Shown: positions 5,024 to 36,305 of the stretch, in pieces
Numbering within the stretch: position 1 is the first letter of the stretch
Layout of the letters: every line of letters begins with the position of its first letter
Assembly (NCBI RefSeq): GCF_001936595.1
Contig: NZ_MLBG01000019.1
Location: 1-49,710, forward strand
Length of the DNA: 49,710 bases
Reading direction: 5' to 3'
DNA from: Desulfovibrio sp. DV
Lineage (GTDB): Bacteria > Desulfobacterota > Desulfovibrionia > Desulfovibrionales > Desulfovibrionaceae
The notes under the pieces: model-generated
Told to the model about the DNA's origin: nothing
The model's input: only the letters and a program-made list of their open reading frames with translations
Database searches by the model: none
Program-made: the position numbers and the translations under genes

Positions 5024-5112
5024 TATGGAAACTCCTCTGCTCGGATTCGGCGAAACCCTATTAATAACTATTACACGAATACCCCTCCCTGACCAGTAGT
5101 TGCGGATGCTCT

Positions 5113-5179
5113 GGAAAAGATTGTAGCCAAAGTGGCTTTGACGCGGCCTGCGCAGCCTGCAAGATCAACAATCTTTTCC
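5113..5179. other. Structured inverted-repeat element upstream of kaiC
   Basis: Perfect 12-bp arms, GGAAAAGATTGT (5113-5124) and its complement ACAATCTTTTCC (5168-5179), enclose 43 nt with an internal hairpin AGCC-AAAGT-GGCT (5125-5137) and a GC-rich dyad (GGCCTGCGCAGCC). Read on the minus strand it is about 90 nt before the kaiC start, so it could be a leader RNA fold, a relic of a small mobile element, or a binding site. I do not recognise a known riboswitch class. Confidence 0.5.
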
Positions 5180-5205
5180 CGAACTGACCGCTCAGCTTTC
5201 TAAAC

Positions 5206-5259
5206 GAAAAAGCGACAGGCCGACGTCCAGCAGATGGCGTCGGTCCTGTCGCTTTTCTT
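5206..5259 (-). terminator. Rho-independent terminator after the Liv operon
   Basis: Long stem: AAAAGCGACAGG-CCGACG (5208-5225) pairs with CGTCGGTCCTGTCGCTTTT (5238-5256), one bulged base, 12-nt loop. On the minus strand the stem is followed by TTTTTCG, giving a strong terminator for transcripts arriving from the PaaK-like gene and insulating kaiC. The plus strand also has CTTTTCTT after the stem, so it may act in both directions. Confidence 0.8.
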
Positions 5260-5542
5260 GGCTTGAACACTTCTGAAGCGGTTAATCCTCCCCTTTTCAG
5301 GCAGTCTGCAAAGGAGGGGCATGCTGCTGCGAATCAGGAATGGATGATCGCTTCGACAACGCCCGTGGAGACGCGGCAATGGAAGATAAAGATACGTAAA
5401 ATGGCTTCCGGTAGCTGATCCGCAAGCGCTACGGTGTGGAGCACCATGCCGAAAAGCAAAAACTTGCACCGGGGCAGATGGTCGCCCTGCGAACCGAAAA
5501 ATCCAGCCGGCCCTGGGCTGATGCGCCCGCTGGCCTGGGAGA

Positions 5543-10130: not shown

Positions 10131-10133
10131 GGG

Positions 10134-11021: not shown

Positions 11022-11079
11022 GCTCTCTCCTCATGCCCTGGCCGCATGCGACGGCCAAATCCTTTGCAACAACGGCGAA

Positions 11080-13921: not shown

Positions 13922-14580
13922 CAGCTCGCCCACTCCTCTTCAAAATCGGCGGCAGACACGAGCTTGTACCCCTTGCGCTCGATGGCCCCGGCCACCAGAC
14001 ACGGGTCGTCGACCGCCAGCCGGATGACCACCATGCGCCGGTCGTTGTGGTAAAAGGTGCCGGTGGCGATGATGCTGACGCCCAATTCGTTGATGATGCC
14101 GGAGACTTCATGGAGGACGCCGGTGCGGTCTTCCACCTCGAAGACAATGCGCGAACCGCCCTGCTTGAGGCCCATTTCCTCGACCAGTACATCAAGCATG
14201 ACCGAGCGGTTGATGTAGCCGACGAGCTTTTGCTGGTCCCCAACAACAGCCAGTCCGGCCAGATTCTTCTGGTGCATGATTTCGGCAGCCTGCTCGATCT
14301 CCATTTCCGGATGCACGGCAATGATGTCCTTGCGCATGATCTTTTGCACGGTAAGCTTTGACAGGAGATAGAGGGCCTCGTGCTTTTCCAGGGTGGTCAT
14401 GATGGAGGGCAGGGCCAGGGCGATGTCCTCCTTGCGCACGTAGCCGAGCAGCTTGCTGTTGTCGTCCACCACAAGGAGCATCCAGAAATCGCTGCCAGTA
14501 AGCAGTTTATCCGCATCAAGAACCGGCGTTTGCGGTGTGACTTTCTTGAAGTCCTTGAGCATTTTGAGACCGACGTACAT
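13921..14580 (-). CDS. CBS-pair / ACT-domain protein heading the Liv operon
   Basis: 219 aa, soluble. Two CBS motifs span about 1-135 (VLDADKLLTGSDFWMLLVVD and KIMRKDIIAVHPEMEIEQAA, AGLAVVGDQQKLVGYINR), followed by an ACT domain (about 140-205: VEDRTGVLHEVSGIINELGV). CBS pairs bind adenylates, ACT domains bind amino acids, so it is a candidate sensor that ties transporter or ligase activity to energy state and amino-acid supply. Start ATG 14580 chosen for the upstream GGAGGG; the frame is open for 18 more codons without a ribosome site. First gene of the operon, overlapping livG by one base. Confidence 0.85.
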   Translation of the reverse strand: MYVGLKMLKDFKKVTPQTPVLDADKLLTGSDFWMLLVVDDNSKLLGYVRKEDIALALPSIMTTLEKHEALYLLSKLTVQKIMRKDIIAVHPEMEIEQAAEIMHQKNLAGLAVVGDQQKLVGYINRSVMLDVLVEEMGLKQGGSRIVFEVEDRTGVLHEVSGIINELGVSIIATGTFYHNDRRMVVIRLAVDDPCLVAGAIERKGYKLVSAADFEEEWAS

Positions 14581-14977
14581 GGTGCGCCCTCCGTGAAAGA
14601 ATGCGATGCATGGTCGCAGATCGCTGCTGTGCAATGATCGCAGGAAACTACGGGCTGTAAGGGTGCTGTTGCTGCGATAGTCCCGAATAAAGTTTCATCG
14701 TTAACATCTTTTTGACAGTTACAAACACTAATTTTTTTGTGTGTATCGGTCAAGGATGCGGCGTGTCGTTGCCGTATATACGATTACTATGTGCATGAAT
14801 GCTGGGTCGTGCCAGGTGTGCGGCCGGGACGAGAGGTTGGGACTGGGGGTAGCCACGGAAATTTGGACAGGCGGTTGACGCTTTTGACGGTCGTTGGCCT
14901 ATGGATGTATACTGGGAGGACAAAACGGAGCAGAATGCGGCATGACCGATAACCGTTATGTTAAGGAGGAATGTGTA
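14581..14977. other. Divergent promoter region of the Liv operon and the small acidic gene
   Basis: About 400 nt without a gene. On the minus strand the Liv operon leader contains two GCGATC repeats near 14617-14640 and an AT-rich stretch at 14685-14740; a weak TTGACC-17-TAGTGT pair (14753 to 14725, minus) is the best promoter guess for the operon. The plus-strand promoter of the small gene is listed separately. Confidence 0.4.
14884..14913 (+). promoter_or_regulatory. Sigma70-type promoter of the small acidic gene
   Basis: TTGACG (14884-14889), 18-nt spacer, TATACT (14908-14913): five of six and five of six matches to the consensus. Expected transcript start near 14920, leaving a leader of about 58 nt with a strong AAGGAGGA site at 14963-14970. 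Confidence 0.75.
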
Positions 14978-15190
14978 ATGAACGCATCAACCAAGAAAAA
15001 GATTTCTAAAGCATCAACAATACTTCAAGAGGTTGCTGACTATTTAGAAGACAAGTCAGCCGAAGAATTTGAATTGTATGGCCAACGCCTCTTTGATTTG
15101 GCTGACGAAATTGAAACGCTTTTAAATGAAATTGAGGACAACGAGGCTAATGCTGAAGATGAAGATGACCCGCAAGAAGATGATGTCTAA
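14978..15190 (+). CDS. Small acidic helical protein of unknown function
   Basis: 70 aa (MNASTKKKISKASTILQEV...). A basic N-terminus (KKKISK) leads into a predicted amphipathic helix pair (about 12-52) and an extremely acidic tail (about 50-70, with runs such as EDEDDPQEDD). No Cys, no membrane segment. The ATG at 14978 has a near-perfect AAGGAGGA site 7 nt upstream and a strong promoter, so expression is probably high. Codons are AT-rich compared with the flanking operons, which hints at foreign origin. The acidic tail could mimic nucleic acid or neutralise a basic partner, but no family is recognised and no partner gene is adjacent. Confidence 0.75.
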   Translation: MNASTKKKISKASTILQEVADYLEDKSAEEFELYGQRLFDLADEIETLLNEIEDNEANAEDEDDPQEDDV

Positions 15191-15834
15191 TCTTTTACGC
15201 GTATTGTCCTGAAGAGTTTGTCTTGCAGCAAACAAACGAATTGCCGATGCACAGATGATTTACAAGCTTTAAAGGCCCGAGGCGAAGTTGCCAGAGGTCT
15301 CCATCCTGGTGAATCCGCGCTTTTCAGTGGAGCTTGAAAGGCAGGAGTATGGTCCCTCAGAAAAATATGCCGCAACGGTACCAGTTGAAGGGCTGACGCG
15401 CCAATAATCTCATCGGTGTGACCGATCCTGCAAAATTCGGTGCCTGCACCTGTGGGAAAAATTGAGCCAGTCAAAAAATAGCAGTCCCAGTAAGGTCTAT
15501 TGACGGCATTTACCCTGGGTAACAGGTGGGCAAATTCCCTTGAGGACGTTACGCAACTTCCAGGGCTTACAGCAAAACAGCTGTAAGCCCTTTTTTGTTC
15601 CCAACGCTATTCCCAACATTCATCATCATAATTGTGCGTAAAGCGCTTTCCTCTGGTGGCCTGCGGTGAGGGGCCCTCGGGCGGTCTTTTCGGTAAGGCT
15701 TCATGACTGACCAAAGCGCGCACTGCCGTCTGTGGACGGTGCTGCCGCTGGGCCTGCTCTGGGTTCCCTGGAAAGGTTCGTGATCGGGGACTCATCAACC
15801 CGTCCCAGTGGCTATCGAGCAGGCACCACATCGT
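15191..15834. other. Intergenic stretch between the small acidic gene and the subtilase
   Basis: About 640 nt with only short weak open frames on both strands. Visible items: a short dyad TTACCC-T-GGGTAA (15510-15522), the terminator at 15563-15596, and directly after it two copies of TTCCCAAC, 12 nt apart (15598-15605, 15610-15617), an arrangement also seen near integrase attachment arms. I see no gene here. Confidence 0.5.
15563..15596 (+). terminator. Rho-independent terminator
   Basis: GGGCTTACAG (15563-15572) pairs perfectly with CTGTAAGCCC (15581-15590), 8-nt loop, then TTTTTT. Oriented to stop plus-strand transcripts, e.g. from the small acidic gene 373 nt upstream. On the minus strand, which would need it after the subtilase gene, there is no U-run, so it serves the plus strand. 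Confidence 0.85.
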
Positions 15835-18309
15835 CTACCGGCCCGAGCCTGCCTCGTCGCCTAAGGGAGCGGCCACTGTTCCTGCCGTCGCGGCAGTCTG
15901 GGCCGCCGAGACAGCGCCGCCAGGGATAGGCATGAGCGTAACCCGCTTGACGTCCAGAGTCCCGCCGGTCCCGGTGTACATGGCCACGCCGGCCTGACCG
16001 GCGCCGAGCGATGTATCCGTGGTTGCCAAGACCTGCGTTCCGTTGATGGAGAAGGTGAGGCTCGATCCCACGGCCTTGATGGCCAGGGTGTTCCAGTCGT
16101 TGGCTATGATGGCGTCGCTTGCGGTCCAGTTTTGCAGCATGGTCAGATACCAGTCGCGCAGGACGAATACGGCGAATGAGCCGCTGTTGGTGTAGCCAAA
16201 GACATAGCCGTAAAACCAGCTGCTATTCCCGGCGGTATTGAGGGGCTGGGGCGTGCCGCGCACAATCAGCGCATTGGTGCTGTTTGCCGCGTTGCTGCGC
16301 CGCAGGGTCGCCGAGCAAGTGAAATCACCGTAGATCCCGCCATTGGACGAGAGGCTGTACCAGGTCGCGGTCTGGGAGCCGTCAGCCGTAACGCTGGCCA
16401 TGCCGTCCGCAACGCTCCAACTGCCCTGCTGCTGGGTCCAGTTGTCCAGTGTCCCGGCGAAGTTCTCGTTTATACCATGGGTGTTGGCTGGTACAGCGGC
16501 AGGAATGTCCAGCGGCAGGAAGTTTGTTCCGGAAAGGCCGTAGCCCGTCGAGAGGCTGGTGGTCTGGTTGGCGGCCACGACGACGGTCCGGCTGACCGGC
16601 GTGGTCCAACCGGCCACGGGCTTGAAGTCCACGGAATGGGATCCGGCCGTCAGTCCTCCGGCAACGTTCTGGCTGGCCCGCCAGGTGCCACCGTCCACCC
16701 GCCAGACCCCCGCCCCGCCGGTCGGCGCGGGGGTGGCGATGGTAACCTGCAAATAGCCCGTGGATGGGACCGGGGTGGTGGCTGCCACGGCCGCCTGGAG
16801 GTCGATGCGCGGCTTTGACAGGTTGGACTTCGGGTCCAGGACGGTGGTCCCGGTGGTCGAAAGTTTGGAAAAAACCTGATCCGGGGTGAGCCAGCTGCCG
16901 GTTCGGGCCTTGGCTGCGGCCTGGAGCACGGCCCCGGCCCCGGCGGCATAGGGGCAGGCGGCGGAGGTGCCGCCGAAGTTGGGGTTCCAGGTGTTGGACC
17001 CGATACCAAGGGTGAAGGCCATGTTGGCCGAGGCCAGCAGACCGACCAGGGGCGAGGCGTTGGAATAGGAGGGGACCTTGTCGACCTGGGTGACGTCGGT
17101 GGCGTAGTAGCCGGTGTCGCAGGAACTGGAGGCGGTCTTTTCCACGCAAGAGTCCGCGCTCACGCAGGGCAGATACGTCCCCACGGCCGCGTCATAGACC
17201 GAGCCCACGGCAATGACTGAGGATATGCAAGCCGGGCTTGGCAGGGCATTGCAATAGCCGCTGTTGCCGGCAGAATTAAACAACGTGATGCCAGCCGCCT
17301 TGGCCGCCGCCGCCGCGTTGGCGATGGCCGTCTTGGCGCTGTCGCACACGCCGTCGTATTTGCCGCCGCTAAAGCTCGTGCTGATGATCTTGATGGGCGC
17401 GCTGGCATTGTCGTTCTGGTGGGTCACGCACCAGTCCCAGGCTGCCACGTAGGCGTCCTCGTTGCAGTATTTGCCTGTGGCGTCGTAGGTGATCTTGAGC
17501 GCATAGAGCTTGGCCCCGGGGGCCACGCCGCCAACGTAGTCGACGCTGTTGCCGACGTCCCCGGCGGCGATGCCGGCGCAGGCCGTGCCGTGACCGTTGC
17601 CGTCCATGGGGTCGGCCTTTTGTTCCCCCACGTCGTAGCCGCCGATGACCTTGGCGTTGGGAAAGGCCGCGCCGCCGAGATAGGGATTGAGGTAATTGAT
17701 GCCCGTGTCGCACACGGCGATGGAAAGGCCGGTACCGTCGTACTGGGAGCGCGGGAGGGTGGCGCCAATGAGGGGCAAGCCCTGGCGCATGTCGGCTTGC
17801 ATGACGCCGACAGGCTCCACTGCGTCCACCTCGGGATTGGCCAGGATGACGGCCAGTTGCTCGGGCGTGACGGCCACGGACAGGTAGAAGAGGTTGTCAT
17901 AGCGGTAGCGGATCACGCTTTCAGGCAGGTCGGGCATGGCCGCCAGGGCCTTGTCGCGGCTTTCCCGCACCACATCCCTCCGGGCGAGTTTCTGGGCCTC
18001 GTCGGCAAGGGGAGCCGAGGCGGCGAGGCGCTTGCCCGAGGCGAAGCCAACGAAGAACCGGCCCACCCCGTCACCTCGGGCAAAGGCCGCCAGAGCCTGT
18101 TCCTGGTCCGTAATTTTGGCACTGGCCGTGACGGAACGAGCGGTGTTCGCCCAGTCCGCCGCAGCGGCGCGCACTGACGTGGCCCAGGCGAGGCCGGTGG
18201 TCAGGGCCAGCCAGACCGCCGCAAGGAGGGCAAGGCGTTGCCGGGCGAGGCGGGACGGACGCCACAGGGGAGGGACGGACTCGCGGGAAGGTCGGTGCGA
18301 CGAGGGCAT
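15835..18309 (-). CDS. Secreted subtilisin-like serine protease (S8) with C-terminal beta domains
   Basis: 824 aa. N-terminal signal/transmembrane segment about 24-46 (RLALLAAVWLALTTGLAWA). An inhibitor-like prodomain spans about 60-175. The S8 triad is intact: Asp201 (VCDTGIN), His240 (GNGHGTACAG), Ser449 (FGGTSAACPYAAG), with oxyanion Asn349 (SAGNSG). Catalytic domain carries many cysteines (e.g. 324, 353, 362, 382, 388, 398), probably disulfides. After it come a PEGA/Ig-like segment (about 530-620, GYLQVTIATPAPTGGAG) and a concanavalin-like beta-sandwich (about 640-795). No PEP-CTERM or Gly-rich RTX tail. Start ATG 18309 has AGGAGG upstream; an earlier in-frame start at 18378 lacks one. 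Likely an extracellular protein-degrading enzyme. Confidence 0.9.
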   Translation of the reverse strand: MPSSHRPSRESVPPLWRPSRLARQRLALLAAVWLALTTGLAWATSVRAAAADWANTARSVTASAKITDQEQALAAFARGDGVGRFFVGFASGKRLAASAPLADEAQKLARRDVVRESRDKALAAMPDLPESVIRYRYDNLFYLSVAVTPEQLAVILANPEVDAVEPVGVMQADMRQGLPLIGATLPRSQYDGTGLSIAVCDTGINYLNPYLGGAAFPNAKVIGGYDVGEQKADPMDGNGHGTACAGIAAGDVGNSVDYVGGVAPGAKLYALKITYDATGKYCNEDAYVAAWDWCVTHQNDNASAPIKIISTSFSGGKYDGVCDSAKTAIANAAAAAKAAGITLFNSAGNSGYCNALPSPACISSVIAVGSVYDAAVGTYLPCVSADSCVEKTASSSCDTGYYATDVTQVDKVPSYSNASPLVGLLASANMAFTLGIGSNTWNPNFGGTSAACPYAAGAGAVLQAAAKARTGSWLTPDQVFSKLSTTGTTVLDPKSNLSKPRIDLQAAVAATTPVPSTGYLQVTIATPAPTGGAGVWRVDGGTWRASQNVAGGLTAGSHSVDFKPVAGWTTPVSRTVVVAANQTTSLSTGYGLSGTNFLPLDIPAAVPANTHGINENFAGTLDNWTQQQGSWSVADGMASVTADGSQTATWYSLSSNGGIYGDFTCSATLRRSNAANSTNALIVRGTPQPLNTAGNSSWFYGYVFGYTNSGSFAVFVLRDWYLTMLQNWTASDAIIANDWNTLAIKAVGSSLTFSINGTQVLATTDTSLGAGQAGVAMYTGTGGTLDVKRVTLMPIPGGAVSAAQTAATAGTVAAPLGDEAGSGR

Positions 18310-25293: not shown

Positions 25294-27090
25294 CTACGTG
25301 TCGCTGCTTTCCGTGAAACGCCAAAATCTATTTGGTTTGGCAAAGGAACGGTTTATTGATGCGATGGGAAAATCACGACCAAATACGTGGCGATGATACG
25401 CGCTTGCATCGGCTTCGATATCGAAATGAAACCGATCAGGGTGTACCATGTTGGCTAAATAGCGCAGGCCAAGCACCCACTTTGGAGCGCCAAAATCGCT
25501 GGATGGGACCGGGGCTGTATGTACGCGGCCGCTGCGTACTGCGGAAACATCGAGCCCGGATTCGTGGCATTCCAGGCAAAATGATTCTGGATCGTTTGAG
25601 ATAAAGGAAGAAATAAAAATAACTTCCGGGTCCAGTCGGTGCAAGGCGGCCGCATCAATGGTTCTACCCGGCCTGCCCTCCAACTCAAGCAACGTGTTGA
25701 CGCTGTACCCGCCGGCAACGCCGACCAGATGATTTTCGAACCGGTCACCCTTGATGGCAAAGAGCGGCTTACCCATGGCATAGTAGGTTCGCGGTCGTTT
25801 CATCCCACTGGCGACCCCTTCGATGACGGGCGCGATCATTTCAGACAAGTAGTCCTGGAGCTTTTGGGCCTCGACGTTTCGGCCGAGTACCGCACCGAAA
25901 GAGTTGATAAGGCTGAAATAGCCGCTGATCGTCTGTATGTCCCGGTGCAATTCCGGCAACATGCCCTGAGCCAGCAGATGCTCCCAAGCGCCAACTACCT
26001 CGGCTTGGGTCGTCGCTCCCATGGCCAGACACAGGGACTCCACGATTTCAAGCCCGCGGGTGAAGGGATAGCCCCCCTGAAAGGCTCCCTCGCGGAGGAC
26101 CGGCGGCGAGAAATGTCCGGTTATGACTGGATCGCCGCCGCATCGCCCACAAGCCGCAGTCGTGTCCGGAACACCGGGGGAAAATGAGAGCAGCCGGGCA
26201 CCCATGGGGCCGTAAAAATCCCGAACGACAACCCGCTCCCCACAGTCAGGGCACAGTGTGTCCAGTCCCCGAGTGCCCGGGGTGTTGAACACGTAGGTAA
26301 AGGGCAAGGTGCGTTGAAGCTCCCTGGCAAAGGCCTCGGTGTCTGCAATGGGTGGTTCCAGGGCCGGGTCGGCTGTCTCGATGGGGACGAAACGCATCAG
26401 TTGCAGGACAATGTTGGGCGATATCGCGGCCAGGGCGTCTGCCAGTCGCCGGGTGTCCTCCCGATTGTCGATGCGATCCATGCAGGCGACTTCCACATGT
26501 ACCCCGCTTTCATACAGCAAGCGGATGTTTCGCAGAACCACGCCCGGGTCGCCGCCGCCACAGGCCTGTACGGCCTTGGCCGTCATGCCCTTGACTCCAA
26601 CATTTATGCAATCAAGCAATCCCAACAGCGGCCGCAAAGAAGTTTCAGTAAAATAGGCGTTGGAGGCGCAGCCGACTAAAAGCCCCTTGTCTGCGGCTGC
26701 CTGGGCAACATTGAGAAATGTATGGTAGGAAGCCAAGGGATCGTTCATCAAAAAGGCTATCCCTTGGCAGTTCTGTTTGATGGTCATCTCGACCACGGCT
26801 TCCGGGGGCAAGTGGCGCAGGGCTGGGCTGTCTGGTCGCATTTCCCGGGCTGTTGCCGTGGCAATGCAGCCTGGACAGTCGAAGTTGCAGCCTACGGTGC
26901 TCACTTGCAAAAATGGCGCTCCAGGATGAAAATGGAGCAACGGGATGGTTTCGACCGAGATCGGACTTGCGACCAGATAGCGATTTGGGAAGCGCTCGGC
27001 CATGGCTCCATTCGTATTTGTATACCGTTCGCAGGCCCCGATTTTACCTGATGGAACATGACAGCCTCGTTCGCAGATCATACACCGCAT
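25294..27090 (-). CDS. Radical SAM enzyme fused to a periplasmic-binding-protein C-lobe
   Basis: 598 aa, no signal peptide. N-terminal third is a radical SAM enzyme of the PflA/AmmeMemoRadiSam kind: Cys cluster C3-C6-C10-C20 at the very start (CMICERGC...GAC), the SAM motif CNFDCPGC (C68, C72, C75), and VAVD-type strands. Two CxxC pairs (C280/C283 and C314/C317) form a probable zinc ribbon. Residues about 400-570 read as the C-terminal lobe of a class III (BtuF/FepB/FhuD) binding protein: GRNVEAQKLQDYLSEMI, VAGGYSVNTLLELEGRPG, LDPEVIFISS, WVLGLRYLANMVHPDRF. Start ATG 27090 follows the stop of the preceding small gene by 9 nt with AAGGA between. Substrate unknown; the fusion partner suggests binding of a metal chelate or corrinoid. 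Function is not known to me. Confidence 0.75.
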   Translation of the reverse strand: MRCMICERGCHVPSGKIGACERYTNTNGAMAERFPNRYLVASPISVETIPLLHFHPGAPFLQVSTVGCNFDCPGCIATATAREMRPDSPALRHLPPEAVVEMTIKQNCQGIAFLMNDPLASYHTFLNVAQAAADKGLLVGCASNAYFTETSLRPLLGLLDCINVGVKGMTAKAVQACGGGDPGVVLRNIRLLYESGVHVEVACMDRIDNREDTRRLADALAAISPNIVLQLMRFVPIETADPALEPPIADTEAFARELQRTLPFTYVFNTPGTRGLDTLCPDCGERVVVRDFYGPMGARLLSFSPGVPDTTAACGRCGGDPVITGHFSPPVLREGAFQGGYPFTRGLEIVESLCLAMGATTQAEVVGAWEHLLAQGMLPELHRDIQTISGYFSLINSFGAVLGRNVEAQKLQDYLSEMIAPVIEGVASGMKRPRTYYAMGKPLFAIKGDRFENHLVGVAGGYSVNTLLELEGRPGRTIDAAALHRLDPEVIFISSFISNDPESFCLECHESGLDVSAVRSGRVHTAPVPSSDFGAPKWVLGLRYLANMVHPDRFHFDIEADASAYHRHVFGRDFPIASINRSFAKPNRFWRFTESSDT

Positions 27091-27099
27091 TGTGGGTCC

Positions 27100-27303
27100 T
27101 TATGGGCGGCGTACGGCGTCGCAGTCGGTAGGTGTATTAGGGGACAGGGCATAGACGCGCTTGGGCGCATCGGGCACGACGACGGTTTTCCCGGACATGT
27201 CTGTGACGGTTGCAGCCGGTATGCTGCCAGGCGCGCGGCAACAGGCCGCAGCCAGGGTCACGGCCAGGACGAAACGAATGGACGGCGCGGCGAACCACTG
27301 CAT
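27100..27303 (-). pseudogene. Exported N-terminal fragment of an iron/B12-type binding protein
   Basis: 67 aa from ATG 27303 (AAGGA 9 nt upstream). Signal peptide about 1-30 (FVLAVTLAAACC...), then TVTDMSGKTVVVPDAPKRVYALSP, which is the exact opening of class III substrate-binding proteins ('VTD..G..V.vP..PKRVv.lsP'). The frame then deviates and stops after 12 more residues. The remaining N-lobe is absent; the next gene, 9 nt away, holds the C-lobe fused behind a radical SAM domain. Either the two genes are halves of one protein interrupted by the radical SAM unit, or this is a mere decay product. It keeps a good ribosome site and signal peptide, so it may still be translated and exported. 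Confidence 0.6.
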
Positions 27304-27991: not shown

Positions 27992-29785
27992 TCAGCCAGC
28001 GCGCCCGGGAAAATCCAGACACGTTACGAAGAGGCGGTCAAAGCCGTCCAGGGTGCTCAGTTCCAGATAGCGCACGTTTCTGGCCAGGATTTCCATTTCC
28101 CCGCGCGCCGCTTGTGACAGCAGGGCCAGGCTGGCCCCGCTTTTCGAGGTGTTGCCCAGATAGGCGACCTTATCGCCCAGGGCGCGGGGGATGATGCCGC
28201 AGCCGGTCAGGCTGGCCACCGGCAGATGCGCGCCGAACTGGCCGGCAATGAGCACCCGGTCGATGGCGGGAAGGGTCAGGCCGGCCTGCTCAAGCAGGGC
28301 ATGGACGCCCGAGAGCAGCGCCCCCTTGGCCAGTTGCACCTGCCGGATATCTTTTTGAGTGACAAAAACGGGCGAGTCCCCGTCAACCAGCCGCAGGGCC
28401 GGCTTGCCATCGCGCAGGCACAGGTAGGCGCGGCGCGGATCATCAACGGCCAGGGCTTGCTCCTTGACCAGATTGCCGCGCGGCAAGATGAGTCCGATCT
28501 TGAGAAAAGCGCTGATGGCGGCCAGGATGCCGCTGCCGCACAAGCCTGTCGGCGGGGCGTTCCCGATGGTCGTCAGGATCAGGCCGGCCGGGGTGACGGC
28601 TACATCCTCGATGGCCCCTGACGAGGCGCGCATCCCGCAGGAAATGTTCATGCCCTCCAGGGCCGGGCCGGCGGCGCAGGAACAGGCGAGCAGGCGTCCG
28701 CCGCTGGCCAGGACCATCTCCCCGTTGGTGCCGATATCGATAAAAAGCGTTGTGTCCGGGGCCTGGGCCAACCCGGCAACCTGCATCCCGGCCACGATGT
28801 CTGCGCCGATGTAGGCGGAAACCGAGGGCAGGCAGTAAAGTCTGGCCCCGGGTGCGGCCATGAGGCCGATTTCGGCTGCAGGCAGGTTTTGGGCGTTGGT
28901 AAAGACCGGGGTAAACGGCGCCCGGCCCAGGGAAGACGGATCGATGCCCAGGAGAATATGCAGCATGGTCGTGTTTGCAGCCACGGCCAGGGTGTCGATG
29001 GACCCGGGCGGCAGGCCCGTCGCGGCGGCCAGTTCCCCGGCAAGGGTGTTGACGCAGGCAACCACGGACTGCTGCAAGGTGCGGACCCGCTCGTCGGGCT
29101 GCTCCATGACAAAGCCCAAGCGGCTGAGCACATCAAAGCCCTGGCTCGTTTGCGGATTGATGGCCGAGCGCACGGCCAACTCCCGGCCGGTGCGCAGATC
29201 AAGAAGGGCTGCGACCACGGTGGTCGTGCCGATATCGACAGCCAGGCCGTAGCGCTGGTCGGCACTGTCCTCGGCTTGCAAGGCGACCAGTCTGCCGTCG
29301 TCGAAGGTCGCGGTCAGACAGTCGTTATCCCAGTCCAGCCCGCGCAGCAGCCGGCCGGGAATCTTTTTTTCCCCCAAGGCGGCCGCCAGGCGCGCAGCAC
29401 GGGAGTCGGCCGGCTGCGGCTCCAGCCTGACGACCTTTTTGACCAGGGCCGGGTCCAACCGAAAGGGCGGCAGATACCCGTCGGACAGGATGGCGCTTTC
29501 CGCGGCCTCCTGCGGCAGGGCCACGTCCAGATCGGCTTCGGGAAAAAGCGTGCAGGCCAGACGGCGGCCCTGGGCCAGTTCCTTTGCGGCAAAAAGCGAG
29601 AGCTCCTGTTCGGTGGGAGGGGGCAGGCTGTCCCCGGCCACGGTCACGGCGCATTTGCCGCACAGGCCGGCCGCGCCGCAGGGGCTTGGGAGCATAAGGC
29701 CGGCGGCGGCCAGGGTATGAAGCAGCGACCGGCCGGGCCGGCCGTCAAGGACACGGCCGCGCTCAGGAATCCGAATGGCGGGCAT
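27992..29785 (-). CDS. RamA-like reductive activator of corrinoid proteins ([2Fe-2S] + ASKHA)
   Basis: 597 aa. N-terminal plant-type ferredoxin domain with Cys36, Cys42, Cys45 (CGAAGLCGKC) and Cys78. From about 175 the ASKHA ATPase-like core of the DUF4445/RamA family: VDIGTTTVVAALLDL, VAANTTMLHILLGI, FIDIGTNGEMVL, GLCGSGILAAI, and VLIAGQFGAHL near the end. Such proteins use ATP and a low-potential electron to reduce inactive cob(II)alamin to cob(I)alamin. Start overlaps the methyltransferase gene upstream by 23 nt. It is the last gene of the nine-gene operon and would keep the single corrinoid protein active; it could also serve as electron donor to the dehydratase-type protein, which lacks its own activator here (inference). 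Confidence 0.9.
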   Translation of the reverse strand: MPAIRIPERGRVLDGRPGRSLLHTLAAAGLMLPSPCGAAGLCGKCAVTVAGDSLPPPTEQELSLFAAKELAQGRRLACTLFPEADLDVALPQEAAESAILSDGYLPPFRLDPALVKKVVRLEPQPADSRAARLAAALGEKKIPGRLLRGLDWDNDCLTATFDDGRLVALQAEDSADQRYGLAVDIGTTTVVAALLDLRTGRELAVRSAINPQTSQGFDVLSRLGFVMEQPDERVRTLQQSVVACVNTLAGELAAATGLPPGSIDTLAVAANTTMLHILLGIDPSSLGRAPFTPVFTNAQNLPAAEIGLMAAPGARLYCLPSVSAYIGADIVAGMQVAGLAQAPDTTLFIDIGTNGEMVLASGGRLLACSCAAGPALEGMNISCGMRASSGAIEDVAVTPAGLILTTIGNAPPTGLCGSGILAAISAFLKIGLILPRGNLVKEQALAVDDPRRAYLCLRDGKPALRLVDGDSPVFVTQKDIRQVQLAKGALLSGVHALLEQAGLTLPAIDRVLIAGQFGAHLPVASLTGCGIIPRALGDKVAYLGNTSKSGASLALLSQAARGEMEILARNVRYLELSTLDGFDRLFVTCLDFPGRAG

Positions 29786-30818
29786 GGTTTTTCCCAGGGG
29801 TGTGGCCGGCCACGGTCGTGAGCATGGCCTGCATGTTGGCCAGCGGCGAGGCGTTGCCCATGCCGCAGGCCGGGGAAACGATATCCACGCCGCATTCCAG
29901 GCAGTGCCGGGTCAGCGCGGCCACCTTGTCCGGGCTGCCGGATTCCAGGGCAAAGGTGCTGACATTGCCCATGAGAGCCGTCTGCGGGAGGTGCTCCCGG
30001 GCCTTTTTGAGGCTGACCACGGCGTCAAAGCTCAGGGCGTCGCAGCCAAGGCCGGCCAGCAGGGGAAAGACCTTGTGCATCTTGCCGCAGATATGGACGA
30101 TAATTCCGGCTTGGGGAAAGGCTTGGCGCAGGCCCGTAATGATCCTGGCCAGGGCCGGGAGTTCGTAGGCGGCAAACAGGGCCGGCCCGAGAATCTCGCC
30201 GGTGCCGCTGGGATCAGACAGGGCGATGACGTCCGCGCCTGCTTCCAGTTGCCCCAGGCCAAAAGCCAGGATGTGGTCGGTCAGGTGGTCCAGAAACGCA
30301 TGGGCCTGTCCGGGGTTTCGGCGCAGTTCCCTGTACAGGGTGACCGGTTCGAGCAGGCTGCCGGCCAGACTCATGGGACCGGTCAGGTTGCCGATGATCG
30401 GCACGCTGCCGCCCTGGGCCGCCAGGAGCGCGATGGCGTCAAGCACCACACCCGGCCGGCCGGTACCGGCGTCAAACGGCGGCAGGCGCTCCCACTGGGC
30501 GACGGAGTCGATGGCATAGCCCACCACCCGCGGCTCATAGGTCGCCGTGCCCAGGTCGACCGTGGCACCCAGGGCTTCGGCTTCGACAGTCATGCAAAAG
30601 GGCAGGCCGTAATTTTCAAAGCACCGGGCGTTTGAGGCTGCTGTGGCCAGCCGGGCCATGCGGACCGGGTCGGTATGGGCCTCGGGCAAAAACAGGCCGG
30701 AGGCTTCCATCAGTTCGCGGGTCACCATGTTCATCATGCCGCCGGGGCAGATGCATGGAGGCCGATCTACCGGCTCGCGGGCCAGGGCCTTTTGAAGCCG
30801 CGTCTTTTCGTCAAGCAT
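29763..30818 (-). CDS. UroD-family corrinoid methyltransferase (MtaA/MtbA-like), copy 1
   Basis: 351 aa from ATG 30818, which lies inside the end of the corrinoid-protein gene (8-nt overlap ATGCTTGA). Uroporphyrinogen-decarboxylase fold as in MtaA/MtbA/CmuA. Zinc motif HICGKM (His242, Cys244) and C-terminal SPACGMGNASPL (Cys318) supply the expected His-Cys-Cys ligands. Moves a methyl group between a corrinoid protein and a thiol or pterin acceptor. An in-frame upstream start at 30857 would add 13 residues. Desulfovibrio lacks coenzyme M, so the acceptor is probably something else. Closest in sequence to copy 2 (shared TVEAEALGA and DPTGT/DPSGTG segments). Confidence 0.88.
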   Translation of the reverse strand: MLDEKTRLQKALAREPVDRPPCICPGGMMNMVTRELMEASGLFLPEAHTDPVRMARLATAASNARCFENYGLPFCMTVEAEALGATVDLGTATYEPRVVGYAIDSVAQWERLPPFDAGTGRPGVVLDAIALLAAQGGSVPIIGNLTGPMSLAGSLLEPVTLYRELRRNPGQAHAFLDHLTDHILAFGLGQLEAGADVIALSDPSGTGEILGPALFAAYELPALARIITGLRQAFPQAGIIVHICGKMHKVFPLLAGLGCDALSFDAVVSLKKAREHLPQTALMGNVSTFALESGSPDKVAALTRHCLECGVDIVSPACGMGNASPLANMQAMLTTVAGHTPGKNHARHSDS

Positions 30819-31497
30819 CCCGGCTGTCCCGGGCCATTTGGCCGAGTTCGGCGGCAAGAAGCTGTCGGGCCACGCTGACCGCGCTTACGGCATTGTCCGC
30901 GTAGGCGTCGGCCCCGATCTTTTTGGCAAAGGCCGGGGACACCGGCGCGCCGCCGATGATGACCTTCACTGCGTCGCGCATGTTTTCCTTCTCCAGCAAG
31001 GCCACGATGCGGCCCATGTTGGTCATGGTGGTGGTCATGAGCGTGGACAGGCAGACAAGGGACGCGCCCACCTCCTTGGCCTTGGCGACAAAGGCCTCGA
31101 CCGGGACGTCGCGGCCAAGATCGTACATCTCAAAGCCGGCCGTCTCCAACATGATCTTCACCAGATTCTTGCCGATGTCGTGGGTGTCGCCCTCGACCAC
31201 CCCGATTACGACCCGGATCTTGCGGGCACGCTTTTCCGATTCAGGCAGATGCGGCTTGAGTTCGGCCAGACCGGCGTACATGGCGTCGGAGCACAGCAGC
31301 AGGTCGGAGACGAAATACTCCTCTTCGTCATACAGCGCCCCGGCCCGGTTCATGCCGTCCACAAGGCCCTCCAGAATGCCTTCCAGGGCAGGATGCCCGG
31401 CGTCGACATAGGCCCGGGAGACGTCGACCACGCGCTCGTCTTCCATATTGACCACGCAGTCCGACAGGTGTTGCAAAAGTCCGTGCTTGTCGTTCAT
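30811..31497 (-). CDS. Corrinoid (B12-binding) methyl carrier protein
   Basis: 228 aa, typical MtaC/MtbC/MttC layout: helical N-terminal cap about 1-90 (ALEGILEGLVDGMNRAG), then a B12-binding Rossmann domain with DTHDIGKN (Asp104, His106, Gly109; His106 is the lower cobalt ligand), CLSTLMTTTMTNM and VIIGGAPVSPAFAKKIGADAY. Accepts a methyl group on Co(I) and hands it to a methyltransferase. GAGGAG is 9 nt upstream of the ATG. The only corrinoid protein among three methyltransferases, so it must be shared. Its stop overlaps the next gene. Confidence 0.94.
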   Translation of the reverse strand: MNDKHGLLQHLSDCVVNMEDERVVDVSRAYVDAGHPALEGILEGLVDGMNRAGALYDEEEYFVSDLLLCSDAMYAGLAELKPHLPESEKRARKIRVVIGVVEGDTHDIGKNLVKIMLETAGFEMYDLGRDVPVEAFVAKAKEVGASLVCLSTLMTTTMTNMGRIVALLEKENMRDAVKVIIGGAPVSPAFAKKIGADAYADNAVSAVSVARQLLAAELGQMARDSRDA

Positions 31498-31548
31498 GCC
31501 GTTCTCCTCGGGAGAGGTTCTCGCCGTCTCATGTTTCGTCGTGGGGCA

Positions 31549-32409
31549 TCAGGCCGGAACAAGCTGTTTGATGACGCCGTTTTTCAAGAAATAGCCGGTG
31601 TTTTTGAGGCAGGCTTCGCCAAGGGGCAGGCCGTTTTTACCGGCAGCCAGGCATCCTTGGCCGTAGGCCATCGGACGGGCAAGGGGCAGGTCCTGCCAGC
31701 TCGCCCGGTCTTCGCTGACCAGGGCGTGGGCCAGCTTGGGGCAGACGTGCACGGCGGCCTTGCCCCCAACGTCGGCTTGGAGCCGGCCCAACAGGGGCAG
31801 GACGAACCGGTCCGCCACAAAGCCGAAGCGTTGGGGACCCAGGATGGACAATGTGCCGGTGGGATCGGCATAGCCAAGGACCAAAACGCCCGCATCGGCC
31901 GCAGCCAGGGCGTAGCCGGCAAGCTCGTCGTGCAGCCGGGCGAGGACCTCGCCCATGAGTGCGGCGTCCCTGCGCCACTCCCTGAGGACCACAGCCAGAT
32001 CCATGAGCCAGTTGAGGATGGTCATGGGGCCGCTTATTTCCAGGGCCACGGGTTCGCCGGCCGTTGCCAGCAGGGAGCAGGCCCGAAGCACCTGCCCCAG
32101 GCGTCCGGCGGCAGTCTCCATAGGGGGGAGGCGCAGGACCTCGCGCAGGGAGGAACACACGAACGTTCCCGCCCTGGGACCGATGGCCGCGTCTCCCAGC
32201 CGGATGGACGCCCCAAGGGCTTCGGCTTCCACGGTGCAGCAAAAGGGCAGGGTGCAAAGGACAGCGCCGTTGCTCTCCTTGATCCCTCGGGCCAGGCGGG
32301 CCATGGCCGCGCCGTCGGTGTGGATGCCGGGAAAGGACAGGCCGAGCCCGGCCAGGAGCCCGGCCTCGGTTCCTGTCGCGTCAAGGTGGCCGCAGGCTGG
32401 TTCGGGCAT
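31549..32409 (-). CDS. UroD-family methyltransferase, copy 2 (short)
   Basis: 286 aa, about 55-65 residues shorter than its relatives, with the usual N-terminal helix and PPCICPGG-type strand missing. Core elements are intact: TVEAEALGASIRLGD, ISGPMTILNWLMD, GYADPTGTLSILGP and the zinc pair HVCPKLA (His221, Cys223) with Cys253 or Cys267 as third ligand. It begins 5 nt after the ATPase gene with a weak ribosome site, so it depends on coupling. The loss of the N-terminus may alter substrate access or dimer contacts. Confidence 0.8.
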   Translation of the reverse strand: MPEPACGHLDATGTEAGLLAGLGLSFPGIHTDGAAMARLARGIKESNGAVLCTLPFCCTVEAEALGASIRLGDAAIGPRAGTFVCSSLREVLRLPPMETAAGRLGQVLRACSLLATAGEPVALEISGPMTILNWLMDLAVVLREWRRDAALMGEVLARLHDELAGYALAAADAGVLVLGYADPTGTLSILGPQRFGFVADRFVLPLLGRLQADVGGKAAVHVCPKLAHALVSEDRASWQDLPLARPMAYGQGCLAAGKNGLPLGEACLKNTGYFLKNGVIKQLVPA

Positions 32410-32414
32410 GCCGG

Positions 32415-33215
32415 TCAGGCTCCCTGTCCGTTGGCGGCCTTGAGCTGGATGATTTCCTCGTTGATGATCCGGATCAGGTCGTTTCTAAGTTCCACGATCT
32501 GCGGGTCCTTGTACATGGTGCTGCGGGTGAGTTGCTTGTCCCGGCCAAAGGCGTGGCGGTAGATGATCTTGCTTGGCGACTGGCCGAGGATGGCAATGTC
32601 CGTGGCCAGATAAAGGGCCTCGTCCACATCGTGGGTGACGAAGAAAATGGTTTTGCGCCGGGCGGTCTCTTTTTGCCAAAGATCGAGCACCAGCTCCTGG
32701 AGCCTGGCCCGGGTCACGGCGTCCAGGGCGGCAAAGGGCTCGTCCATAAGGAGAATCGGCGGATCAATTCCAAAGGCCCGGGCAATGGCGCAGCGCTGGC
32801 GCATCCCGCCGGAAAGCTCTCTGGGGAACTTATCAAAGCTGGTCGCGTCCAGTTCCACCTCGGCCAGCCGGCGCAGGGCCTTTTCCCGGCGCTCGGCTGC
32901 GGACAGGGACGGAAACTTCTGCTTGAGCGCAATGGTGATGTTGTCCCCGGCACTCATCCAGGGGAACAGGCCGTAGTCCTGAAACACCACCCCGCGCTCC
33001 AGCCCCGGCCCGGTGACCGGCTCCCCATCGACCAGAATCTGCCCGGTCCTGGGTTTCTCCAGCCCGGCCAGCAGGCGCAGCAGGGTGCTCTTGCCGCAGC
33101 CCGACTGGCCAAGCAGGCAGACGAAGGCCCCGGCCTCCACCTCCAGATCGATGCCGCCCAGGATCTGGGCCGTGTCGTAGGCGAAACACAGCTTCTCAAT
33201 AGTCACATTCAACAA
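32415..33215 (-). CDS. ABC transporter ATPase, TauB/SsuB type
   Basis: 266 aa. Walker A GQSGCGKST, Q-loop VVFQDYGLFPW, signature LSGGMRQRCAIARAF, Walker B ILLMDEPFAALD and FVTHDVDEALYLA: the taurine/nitrate/sulfonate subgroup. Starts with TTG (33215), GGGAGG about 8 nt upstream; an in-frame GTG at 33206 is the alternative. Placed between methyltransferase copies 3 and 2, apart from its permease, which shows that the importer and enzymes evolved as one unit. Confidence 0.92.
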   Translation of the reverse strand: MLNVTIEKLCFAYDTAQILGGIDLEVEAGAFVCLLGQSGCGKSTLLRLLAGLEKPRTGQILVDGEPVTGPGLERGVVFQDYGLFPWMSAGDNITIALKQKFPSLSAAERREKALRRLAEVELDATSFDKFPRELSGGMRQRCAIARAFGIDPPILLMDEPFAALDAVTRARLQELVLDLWQKETARRKTIFFVTHDVDEALYLATDIAILGQSPSKIIYRHAFGRDKQLTRSTMYKDPQIVELRNDLIRIINEEIIQLKAANGQGA

Positions 33216-33260
33216 AACGCACTGCCTCCCGCATCCGGTTTCACTCGTCGTTGGCGCTGG

Positions 33261-34352
33261 TCAGGCGTCTGCCCCGTCACTGGGCAGCCGGTCCAGCAGG
33301 TCCCGAACCGTGTCGGGCCTGACCGGGTAGCCCACTTCCCGCACGACCTGCAGCATGGCCTCGATGTTTGTCAGCGGTGTTTCCACCGGCAGGCTGCATC
33401 CGGACATGACGACATAGCCCTTGGGACTGTCGTAGGCGTCTAAAATGCACTCCAAGGTCTTGCGGCGCACGTCGGCCACCGTGCCGCCGTACATGACGCT
33501 GGCCGGGTCGACATGGCCGAGAATTTTTGTCTTGTGCCCGATTGTGAGGCAGCAGTCCTTGAGGTTGACCACATTGTCCACGCTAAACCCGCCGACGCCG
33601 AGATCGGCGATGTCGTGCCAGATGCGTTTGGTTGCGCCGCAGATATGGATGACCGGCGACCTGCCGTGGCTTTTGATAAAATCGACCAATTCTTTCAGAT
33701 ACGGCAGGGAAAACTCTCGGAAGGCGGCCGGGCTGACCACGGTGCACGACGACATGGGCTCGGAGATGGTCGGCGACAGCCCTTTGTCGATGGCAGCCTC
33801 GGCGTAAGCCAGGCAGGTTTCCAGGGACACCCGGCACAACTTGTGAAAGGCTTGGGGGTTTTTACGCATAAGCCGGAAGGATGCATCGACCCCGTAGAGG
33901 AAAAAGGCGTTGGTGAACGGGCCGACGATACCGGCCGAGCAGCCCACCTCGTTGCCGATGGCCTCAAGGAGGATGTCCATGGCTTCGAGGTAGACGGGCA
34001 GCCGGCCGTCCTTGCGGGGATCGGCAGGCCGCAGGCCGTCTATGGCCGCGACGCTTTCGACGGCCGGGGCGGCCAGATCGACGGTATGGTCCTCGGGGCA
34101 GGTCACTTTGGCGCCCATGGCCTCGGCCCAGGCGAAAAGGTCGGTAAAAATCCGCACGCTGTCATAGCCAAAGCGCCGGTAGGAGGCGATCTGGGCCTTG
34201 GCCAGCACCTCGGGATCGGTGTTGAACTGGGAAATCCTGCAGCCGTAGATTCTGGCCGCGCCGTTGGCCACATTGGGGTTGCATGGCAGCCGGTCCGCTT
34301 CCCTACCCTGGGCAATGGCAGCCGCCCGCTCAACCGGAGTCATTTCGCGCAT
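33261..34352 (-). CDS. UroD-family methyltransferase, copy 3
   Basis: 363 aa from ATG 34352 (AGGAAG upstream). A more distant UroD-family member: MREMTPVERAAAIAQGREADRLPC, GIVGPFTNAFFLYG, ISEPMSSCTVVSP, zinc motif HICGATKRI (His236, Cys238) and MSGCSLPVETPLTNI (Cys319). The third ligand and overall layout match corrinoid methyltransferases rather than true uroporphyrinogen decarboxylase. Flanked by the permease and ATPase genes of the importer. It differs enough from copies 1 and 2 to suggest a different step, for example demethylation of the imported compound. Confidence 0.85.
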   Translation of the reverse strand: MREMTPVERAAAIAQGREADRLPCNPNVANGAARIYGCRISQFNTDPEVLAKAQIASYRRFGYDSVRIFTDLFAWAEAMGAKVTCPEDHTVDLAAPAVESVAAIDGLRPADPRKDGRLPVYLEAMDILLEAIGNEVGCSAGIVGPFTNAFFLYGVDASFRLMRKNPQAFHKLCRVSLETCLAYAEAAIDKGLSPTISEPMSSCTVVSPAAFREFSLPYLKELVDFIKSHGRSPVIHICGATKRIWHDIADLGVGGFSVDNVVNLKDCCLTIGHKTKILGHVDPASVMYGGTVADVRRKTLECILDAYDSPKGYVVMSGCSLPVETPLTNIEAMLQVVREVGYPVRPDTVRDLLDRLPSDGADA

Positions 34353-34408
34353 GGGTTCTTCTTCCTGGTGCCTGCGTCTGCGGGGCGCTGGCGATTTCAT
34401 GAGCTGAT

Positions 34409-35167
34409 TTAGCTGTTAAGCGTCCAGGCCAAGGCCCGCCTTTTGATCAGGTCAAACAGGATCATGATGCCGACCAGAATAAGGGCCATGAAGATGAAGC
34501 CGACAATGACCATGTCAAAGCGGGCAAAGTCCGAATAGTATTGGACAAAATAGCCCATGCCCGACGTGGCCCCGAACATTTCGGCCACGGTGAGCAAAAT
34601 GAAGGAGAATTTGAGCGCAATGGAACACCCGGCAAAGATGGTGGGAGCGGCGGCGGGCAGGACCACGCGAAACATTTTTTCCAGGCCCCGGATTTCCAGG
34701 GTGGCGGCGTTGTCCAGATAGCGTTTGTCGATGGTGACCACCCCGGCGATGGTGGTCCCCAGGATGGGCCAGAACGCCCCCAGGAAAATGACGAACACCG
34801 AGGCGGTGTAAAAGGTGGAAAAGACGTGAATGGCAAAGGGCGTGATCAGGGTCACCGGCACGGCGCTTAAGGCGGTGATGTAGGGGGTGATGTTGCGGCG
34901 AAGCGGCACGACAAGGCCAATGACCACGCCGAGGCTCACGCCGAGGACCACGGCCAGGGCATAGGCGGGGACCAGGAGCTTGAGCGAACTGAGCAGGCCT
35001 TCAAACAGCTTGCCGGCAGATTTTGCGAACGCCGGCAGCACCTTGCTCGGTCCGACAAAAAGAAATGGGTCCAGCACGCGAAACGCGTCGGTTGCGAGCC
35101 AGTAGCCGAGGATGAGGCCGATTCCGATACAGCCAATGCCCCAATTCTGCTTGAAAGCCTTTTTCAC
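34409..35167 (-). CDS. ABC transporter permease, TauC/SsuC type
   Basis: 252 aa, six predicted membrane segments, with the BPD_transp_1 loop motif ATLEIRGLEKMFRVVLPAAAPTI (ATPase contact) and LRLAWLVAVAEM-like end region FILLTVAEMFGATSGMGYFV. Starts with GTG (GGAGG 5 nt upstream). Completes the SBP-permease-ATPase importer in this operon. Confidence 0.92.
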   Translation of the reverse strand: MKKAFKQNWGIGCIGIGLILGYWLATDAFRVLDPFLFVGPSKVLPAFAKSAGKLFEGLLSSLKLLVPAYALAVVLGVSLGVVIGLVVPLRRNITPYITALSAVPVTLITPFAIHVFSTFYTASVFVIFLGAFWPILGTTIAGVVTIDKRYLDNAATLEIRGLEKMFRVVLPAAAPTIFAGCSIALKFSFILLTVAEMFGATSGMGYFVQYYSDFARFDMVIVGFIFMALILVGIMILFDLIKRRALAWTLNS

Positions 35168-35249
35168 CCGATCCTCCAGGGAAACGGCGGCTGCGGCATT
35201 GTCCGCCGCAGCCGCCGCGCGTACTCGCGCAAGCGCTGTCGCTTGGCTG

Positions 35250-36305
35250 TTACAGATTGTACTGGTTGTACATTTCGAGCTTTTTCTTGAAGAACGGATC
35301 GTCCGGGTACTGGGCCAGCAGCGAATCCAGGGCGGATTTGTAGATGACGGTATTCAAGTGGTCGTCGATGTTGACGGTCTGGTCCTTGATGTAGCCAAAC
35401 GACTGCATTTTCTTCCACATGGTGACGACGTTGTTCTTGTAGGGGTCGGTCTCGTAGATGAGGTGCGGGCTTTGTACAAAGCTGCGCACGAGCCCTTCGG
35501 GCATGTCGAGCTCTTTCATCGTGAGCTTGACCACTGTGTCCATGCCGCCCGGCGACTGCATGTCGCGTTCGGCGCGCAGATAGGCGCGCAAAAGCTTTTT
35601 GAGGAGTTCGGGGTTGGTGCCCATCCATTCGGTCTGGGACAACATCCGGCAGCAGGAGTGGTTGGGCCACAATTCATCCGGCCATAGGACAATGCGCATC
35701 CCGGATTCGTTGATCTGCGGCTCAAAGCCGGTGGACACCGCACCGAAATCGCACTGGCCGCTGCGCACCGCTTCCATGACGTCCTGGTTCCGCTTGATCT
35801 CGACGAAGGTGACGTCCTTGTTGAGGTCAAACCCGGCGTCATGGAGGATGCCTTTGAGGACGATGTCCGGCGTTCCGCCGCGCATGATGGCGATTTTTTT
35901 GCCCCGAAACGACTCGATGCCCTTGTATTCCGTACCCGGCAGGGCGAACACCGGCGTTGCGCCGATGATCATGTAGCCGCCGAAGATGGAAAATTTCTGT
36001 CCGTTGGCGATCTGAATAAGCGGTCCGCCCGTGCCGTAGGTGGAGATGACGTCCACCTTGCCGGAACTGAGCGCTGAAAAGGCATCGGTGCCGTTATTGA
36101 TGTAGACCATCTCGACGTCGATGCCTTCGTCGTCCAGGTAACCCTTTTCCTTGGCCAGGAATTGGAAGACCTGGCCGGAAGTGGCTTGGGCCGCCACCTT
36201 GATCTTGGGCTTGTCGCCGGCCGCATGGGCCGTTCCGGTAAACCAGACGGCGCTGATACACAGGCCAAGGGCCAGGGCGGCAAGCGATCGTGCAGTCTTC
36301 GTCAT
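35250..36305 (-). CDS. ABC transporter substrate-binding protein (NMT1/TauA/SsuA type)
   Basis: 351 aa, Sec signal peptide 1-28 (AALALGLCISAVWFTGTAHA). Mature protein has the NMT1-like fold: VFQFLAKEKGYLDDEGIDVEMV, INNGTDAFSALSSGKVDVIS, FRGKKIAIMRGGTPDIVLKG. AAAGGAG precedes the ATG. Family ligands include sulfonates, nitrate, thiamine precursors and phthalate-like acids; here the corrinoid methyltransferase genes suggest a methylated organic compound. A CC pair (NHSCCRML) lies at the C-terminal lobe. Confidence 0.9.
   Translation of the reverse strand: MTKTARSLAALALGLCISAVWFTGTAHAAGDKPKIKVAAQATSGQVFQFLAKEKGYLDDEGIDVEMVYINNGTDAFSALSSGKVDVISTYGTGGPLIQIANGQKFSIFGGYMIIGATPVFALPGTEYKGIESFRGKKIAIMRGGTPDIVLKGILHDAGFDLNKDVTFVEIKRNQDVMEAVRSGQCDFGAVSTGFEPQINESGMRIVLWPDELWPNHSCCRMLSQTEWMGTNPELLKKLLRAYLRAERDMQSPGGMDTVVKLTMKELDMPEGLVRSFVQSPHLIYETDPYKNNVVTMWKKMQSFGYIKDQTVNIDDHLNTVIYKSALDSLLAQYPDDPFFKKKLEMYNQYNL

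Follow-up and report, generated by a model that had tools for sequence, protein, structure and literature searches.

A family of radical SAM proteins fused to the C-lobe of a binding protein and usually encoded next to an uptake system whose cargo is probably a metal-containing compound

Introduction

Two neighbouring reading frames of Desulfovibrio sp. DV raise the question of how parts of a substrate-binding protein came to lie on either side of a radical SAM domain. The shorter frame (67 aa) resembles the beginning of such a protein, and the longer one (598 aa), 9 nt downstream (27091-27099), joins a radical SAM part to what resembles its C-terminal lobe. The earlier note on this DNA took the two for opposite ends of one protein, the gene of which, BtuF/FepB-like, had been split by an inserted radical SAM unit. 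The stretch analysed, called the window, is contig NZ_MLBG01000019.1, positions 1 to 49,710 (49,710 nt). Both frames are real pieces and are adjacent, and the features discussed below are as follows.

25294..27090 (stop included), minus strand: radical SAM / binding-protein C-lobe fusion gene, 598 aa (ORF and full-length relatives)
26479..26901, minus strand: radical SAM domain core, residues 64-204 (Pfam Radical_SAM PF04055, 47 bits, over the cut-off of 29.5)
26866..26889, minus strand: CxxxCxxC cluster motif, C68, C72, C75 (invariant in 41/41 fusions)
26137..26253, minus strand: probable metal-binding cysteine knuckle, C280, C283, C314, C317 (from column conservation)
25366..25965, minus strand: Peripla_BP_2-class C-lobe, about residues 376-575 (NCBIfam, PDB match, profile, Foldseek, alignment)
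27100..27303, minus strand: 67-aa ORF, apparently the truncated start of a separate binding-protein gene, a scar (blastn, protein match)
27091..27139, minus strand: junction of 49 nt, from the end of binding-protein homology to the fusion start (blastn coordinates)

The two parts of the fusion

Judged from its sequence, the fusion is of the AmmeMemo-like radical SAM type. Model TIGR04337 (AmmeMemoRadiSam system radical SAM enzyme, amrS; NCBIfam) covers residues 1-294 of the fusion at 98.8 bits, a score that does not reach the curated value of 220. Most of the model is matched, and the CxxxCxxC and N-terminal cysteines are common to both; however, the known model stops near residue 349, without a binding-protein lobe. 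We take the CxxxCxxC at C68, C72 and C75 to be the radical SAM cluster motif. The protein begins with the cysteine-rich MRCMICERGC, and a signal sequence is absent by eye. In an alignment of 41 fusions, C280, C283 and C317 are kept in all rows and C314 in 40; L002 and G986 are not among these rows, and L071 was dropped, as its fusion gene (9640-12030) is in two frames, by mutation or sequencing error. The latter gene lies directly before B12 synthesis genes.

The identity of the C-terminal part is less plain from standard family searches. The earlier note had named a Pfam match to Peripla_BP_2 (PF01497) as its own test, and the outcome went against it: neither the 598-aa nor the 67-aa protein matches this family at E<=1. 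More sensitive comparisons do find the fold. NCBIfam peripla_PGF_1 matches residues 396-559 (E 1.4e-4; 21.1 bits, far under the cut-off of 325), and the best sequence match of solved structure is the binding protein 4pag of Sulfurospirillum deleyianum (residues 373-574, E 4.9e-4). An AlphaFold2 model built on 14 sequences (pLDDT 74.8, pTM 0.77), when compared with the PDB by Foldseek, retrieves 4ovk (E 8.9e-11), 4hn9, 4pag, CeuE, IsdE, and a BtuF, while the other part of the model retrieves the PFL-activating enzyme (3c8f, E 6.9e-7), NifB, and viperin. This profile and fold evidence identifies residues ~376-575 as a binding-protein C-lobe of the Peripla_BP_2 class. The claim that a C-lobe is fused to a radical SAM enzyme is thereby supported. 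So is the claim that the N-lobe is missing: in 42 fusion rows the match to the lobe profile starts at profile position 1 or 2, directly after the radical SAM part, which leaves no room for an N-lobe, and none was found in these rows by profile position.

The fusion shares the sequence and fold of its C-lobe with the Peripla_BP_2 / FecB-BtuF class, whose nearest solved member is 4pag, but it differs in having no N-lobe, no apparent export signal and other loop motifs. Aligned blocks of the fusion and of the binding proteins from the same gene clusters are YYAMGKP / YYAEGxDG, AGGxSVN / AGGxNVH and SDFGAPKWVLGLRYLA / NWFDRPPSFMRLLGLKWLA, whereas the loop motifs are unlike (SDFGAPKW in the fusion versus NWFDRPPSFMR in the clusters' binding proteins). 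The loop residues P442, E452, P536, and W538 are identical in 41/41 fusions, and K441, R450, F451, N453, and S531-G534 in all 14 sequences of a narrower alignment (A1). The positions P442, E452, P536, and W538 would face the cleft, to judge from the alignment.

Spread and origin of the fusion

Full-length fusions are present in at least 14 of 199 genomes of Desulfovibrionaceae, the window's genome counted. In other classes, fusions at E<=1e-40 were found in at least 2/85 genomes (class of G442), 1/22 (class of G468), 3/63 (class of G365), 2/55 (class of G484), and 19/291 (class of G483); seven of these 27 non-family genomes had already matched in the phylum-wide search with the lobe profile A2 (residues 340-598 from 14 Desulfovibrionaceae relatives). 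The sum is at least 41 genomes, with a patchy spread in which absences are soft, since only some candidates were scored per genome: 6 in the family and phylum searches, in genomes with more than that, and 9 in the class of G483. The profile searches cover the window's own phylum (Desulfobacterota). A2 matches at least 105 of its 395 genomes at E<=1e-8, and near-whole matches at E<=1e-70 occur in eight (G000, G442, G483, G365, G484, G213, G468, and G517). After those eight the next matches reach E 3.6e-26, and most of the weaker ones listed, not each inspected, are in frames of ~300-400 aa, the length of binding proteins. A peptide-pattern scan of the genome collection, which reaches close relatives only, gave one relative, L002. 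Among 72,556 plasmid records, six have matches, all partial, and two of these are annotated amrS.

In a tree of the lobes (91 rows passed the filter and 89 remained after removal of two duplicates), a branch supported at 100/99 separates 42 fusion rows from 47 binding-protein rows. The binding proteins of the fusion clusters themselves fall on the binding-protein side. By these comparisons the fusion family is old, and one origin would fit the tree. The best non-fusion A2 matches are binding proteins of family f33, which are not sisters of the fusion lobes in the 89-row tree.

In one locus (L103, from G989) two divergent fusion genes, at 3510-5342 and 14361-16175, lie about 9 kb apart.

Cluster order in relatives and the 67-aa reading frame

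In relatives an intact binding-protein gene comes first, followed by those for FecCD permease, ATPase, class I methyltransferase, and fusion. The full order is seen in seven Desulfovibrionaceae loci, L002 (Solidesulfovibrio aerotolerans DSM 16695), L033, L039, L040, L041, L043, and L044; L037 has no methyltransferase at that position. The gene pair of the window, sought in relatives, was thus found there as separate intact genes of one cluster, and the pieces belong to two proteins rather than to the ends of a single one.

Comparison with these relatives shows where the window departs from the common order. The scar is 82% identical in DNA to L002 5426-5503 over 78 bp and 76% identical to L033 over 80 bp (blastn). 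The homology of the 67-aa piece ends just after PKRVYALSP, and DNA homology jumps from about codon 55 of the binding-protein gene to the fusion start (L033 8839, L002 8979). The two homologous parts are ~3.46 kb apart in L002 and L033 and 49 nt apart in the window, where the junction resembles neither flank clearly. At the protein level, homology within the 67-aa ORF spans 27136-27294 (minus strand), with 57% identity to the L033 binding protein over residues 5-55 (E 7.8e-10). With such a match to a relative's binding protein, a random 67-aa ORF was rejected. The ORF looks like the deletion scar of a separate binding-protein gene, and ~3.4 kb, comprising permease, ATPase, methyltransferase, and most of the binding-protein gene, appear to have been deleted from the window. 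The reading of the window is corrected accordingly from an insertion-split gene to a scar. Splitting of one gene by an inserted radical SAM unit, both ends being left as two genes, would account for two adjacent pieces in the right order but is hardly credible, given seven relatives that have an intact binding protein and a fusion with three genes between them, the 100/99 branch that parts fusion lobes from binding proteins, and the jump in DNA homology from codon ~55 to the fusion start.

The junction at 27091-27139 could alternatively be an assembly misjoin, but no orthologs of the binding protein and the methyltransferase are present elsewhere in the genome either. Searches with the L033 proteins were made in 14 genomes. 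In the window's genome the binding-protein query finds only the scar (57%), the fusion lobe (24%), and a protein on contig C158 (29%), and the best match of the methyltransferase query is a paralog of 37%. With only distant matches in a genome rated 99.8% complete, both orthologs are missing. In G109 the binding-protein query matches only the fusion's own lobe, and a methyltransferase of 66% is kept elsewhere. G007 has no close ortholog of either, the best match being one of 33% for the former and a generic one for the latter. G058 and G121 keep both at another genome site (63% and 69%; 65% and 70%). These cases indicate that the fusion is sometimes separated from its cluster neighbours or outlives them, and G007 and the window's genome, that it can exist without close orthologs of the binding protein and the methyltransferase.

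The fusion gene of the window is still under selection. Compared with L033, its dN/dS is 0.131 over residues 1-339 and 0.119 over the lobe; compared with L002, the two parts give 0.127 and 0.084. All of these ratios are rough, as the dS values lie between 1.1 and 2.4. The end branch of the window in the lobe tree measures 0.15, and that of its sister L033 measures 0.22. Decay of the window gene was considered and is unsupported, with dN/dS at about 0.12 and an end branch shorter than that of L033.

Gene neighbourhood and the ligand

Neighbours were counted in 42 loci (the window, L002, and 40 others) as BLAST matches to reference proteins over bit thresholds. Each locus contributed one fusion; the second fusion of L103 and a partial one in G986 were uncounted. 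Within 10 kb of the fusion, an ATPase is present in 33 loci (a count that may include other ABC ATPases), a permease in 32, a methyltransferase in 32, and a separate binding protein in 30, the fusion's own lobe being excluded. A recognised TonB receptor is present in 16, which is an undercount, as the L101 receptor is outside the 16. Permease, ATPase, methyltransferase, and separate binding protein occur together in 29 of the 42 loci, and the methyltransferase is on the same strand within 400 nt of the fusion in 30. Permease and separate binding protein are both missing from the 10-kb surroundings of the fusion in ten loci, the window among them, some of these loci being contig-cut; contig ends cut several loci, including L036, L067, L069, and L071. 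In L068 and L070 the methyltransferase is followed by fusion, TonB receptor, binding protein, and permease. TonB-like genes were recognised in five of the 42 loci, and an ExbB-type gene was confirmed in L102.

Of known uptake systems, BtuB-BtuFCD invites comparison. The binding protein and permease of L068 score best with BtuF and BtuC among NCBIfam equivalogs (55 and 203 bits), but all the cluster scores are under cut-off (234; 461 and 334), and the receptor fits a siderophore model (111.5) better than the B12 model (68.9). No riboswitch, the cobalamin riboswitch included, was found at the gathering threshold in 19 sources (17 fusion loci plus L073 and L074), the one match being a tRNA. Among solved structures the L068 binding protein is closest to 4pag (E 1.2e-82), then 4ovk and HI_1472 (3psa, E 2.9e-17), the last described as a molybdate binding protein.

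The metal-related neighbours vary with the locus. In L071 the fusion is directly followed by anaerobic B12 genes, namely by a CbiK-like gene (195.6 bits, cut-off 400) and CbiL (192.4, cut-off 163), by CbiC-like and CobA-like genes below cut-off, and by CbiD, CbiET, and part of a siroheme synthase as read by eye. CbiK-like genes are also present in L102, L104, and L105, about 7.7 kb from the fusion. L066 has a CobW-type (CobW/HypB-like) GTPase (37.9 bits, cut-off 20.7), with two BLAST relatives in L109, and a regulator with a molybdopterin-protein-like domain, with relatives in L103 and L109; beside the L066 regulator are molybdate transporter genes (read by eye). A DUF364 gene is beside the fusion in L101 (147.6 bits) and L109 (75% identity), with a weak match in L103. 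As outlined in one study of this family, DUF364 has a proposed role in the synthesis of flavin, pterin or siderophore-like chelators, and functions in the transport of iron, tungstate, vanadium, and molybdate belong to its genome context (PMC2954201). These hints disagree on the metal, and each such neighbour is confined to between 1 and 4 of the 42 loci. There are contextual hints to corrinoid/cobalt and to molybdenum/tungsten as the ligand, and a metal chelate or corrinoid, as the earlier note had suggested, is plausible from such neighbours.

RACo and URO-D-type genes are near the fusion in the window and in L038. In the window, on the minus strand, RACo is at 27992-29785 and URO-D-type genes are at 29763-30857, 31549-32409, and 33261-34400 (the last by BLAST). 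The ORF at 30811-31497 (minus strand) is presumably corrinoid-protein-like, by motif. The stretch 27992-34400 is likely a corrinoid methyl-transfer cluster, and L038 has matching neighbours. Inside this cluster, at 32415-36305 (minus strand), another ABC transporter is encoded, its genes being named by eye as ATPase, permease, and binding protein.

Proposed function and alternatives

Genes of the conserved fusion family usually adjoin an uptake system whose cargo is probably a metal-containing compound. This points to a conserved enzyme family of unusual design in sulfate-reducing bacteria, tied to their outer-to-inner membrane uptake system. Sulfide makes trace metals scarce for these organisms. 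The best explanation as a whole, whose chances we consider even, is that of an old fusion serving as the cytoplasmic partner of the uptake system, with the lobe holding a metal chelate for the barrel. The family would have formed by fusion of an AmmeMemo-type radical SAM enzyme with the C-lobe of a FecB/BtuF-class binding protein. The TonB receptor, the binding protein, and the FecCD-ABC transporter would import a metal chelate; we infer a cytoplasmic place for the fusion from its cysteine-rich start and from the signal sequence being absent by eye. The lobe would keep its recognition surface and hold the imported compound against the radical SAM barrel, which takes the place of the N-lobe in the chain and may open, strip or methylate what is held. 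The adjoining class I methyltransferase would work with the fusion, and the outcome would be a metal or cofactor made usable without oxygen. In the window the cluster would have lost transporter and methyltransferase by deletion, leaving the 67-aa ORF as a scar and the fusion still selected. Against this explanation, half a cleft alone may not bind a ligand. A more specific form of it is offered tentatively, as somewhat improbable: that the C-lobe has been reused in the cytoplasm, with the cargo of its own transporter clamped against a radical SAM barrel that replaces the N-lobe, and that shared recognition would thereby match uptake to the oxygen-free breaking of a metal chelate.

The lobe might instead have lost ligand binding and serve a structural role or the docking of another protein, such as the methyltransferase or the transporter. 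The loop motifs, unlike those of the clusters' binding proteins, agree with such a role, as does the methyltransferase that adjoins the fusion in 30/42 loci. However, the putative cleft-facing residues P442, E452, P536, and W538 are unchanged in 41/41 fusions, and lobe and radical SAM half are equally constrained (dN/dS), so we regard a docking role as unlikely. Somewhat less probable again is that the enzyme makes rather than breaks, the fusion and the methyltransferase building or tailoring a chelator or cofactor that the transporter returns in loaded form. DUF364 beside the fusion in L101 and L109 and the full B12 synthesis gene set that follows it in L071 would suit such a pathway, but exporter or chelator-synthesis genes are unrecognised in most loci, where neighbours are partly annotated. 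Loss of the transporter with the fusion kept is compatible with chelate breaking and with synthesis alike. For the preferred reading, in which the lobe holds an imported chelate for the barrel, the question of the ligand is directly testable through the intact binding protein of the cluster.

Elements of the proposal have counterparts in known enzymes. ChuW/HutW, as outlined in one account, is a heme-degrading radical SAM methyltransferase that processes an imported metal tetrapyrrole without oxygen (PMC10035031), and the likeness to the proposal is an anaerobic radical SAM attack on an imported compound. Unlike ChuW/HutW, the fusion has no HemN-type family among its Pfam or NCBIfam matches at E<=1. 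To our knowledge, ChuW/HutW have no binding-protein lobe. In chelatases and HmuS, a fold related to periplasmic binding proteins handles a metal tetrapyrrole within an enzyme, according to one summary (PMC12583661), but these are not radical SAM enzymes, and the fusion matches no chelatase family in Pfam or NCBIfam. A search of titles and abstract starts in the open-licence PMC literature gave no description of a radical SAM enzyme with a binding-protein lobe.

Related clusters with enzymes lacking the lobe

Radical SAM genes related to the fusion also occur without the lobe. In L073 and L074, f33-type binding proteins flank such a gene, beside an ATPase and TonB, and L073 has in addition a TonB receptor nearby. 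In these loci (L073 7804-17321, L074 5243-11697) the radical SAM protein has a different C-terminal domain, which is unmatched, and its gene sits between two binding-protein genes. G133 has a lobe-less related gene next to a TonB receptor and CbiQ/CbiO-type genes, a set that recurs on contig C64 of the window's genome. There are thus hints that radical SAM enzymes of this kind follow TonB-linked uptake with or without the lobe.

In the first 10 kb of L111-L116 the fusion is preceded by another set of transporter genes, together with a radical SAM gene that lacks the lobe (336-348 aa) and one for an unmatched ~390-aa protein, so both enzyme forms are present in one cluster. In L121 (6232-11968) and L120 (4633-12686), a lobe-less radical SAM relative is accompanied by a methyltransferase, CbiQ/CbiO-type genes, a 192-aa protein of unknown type, and a TonB receptor. 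The window's own genome has kept this sister uptake module on C64.
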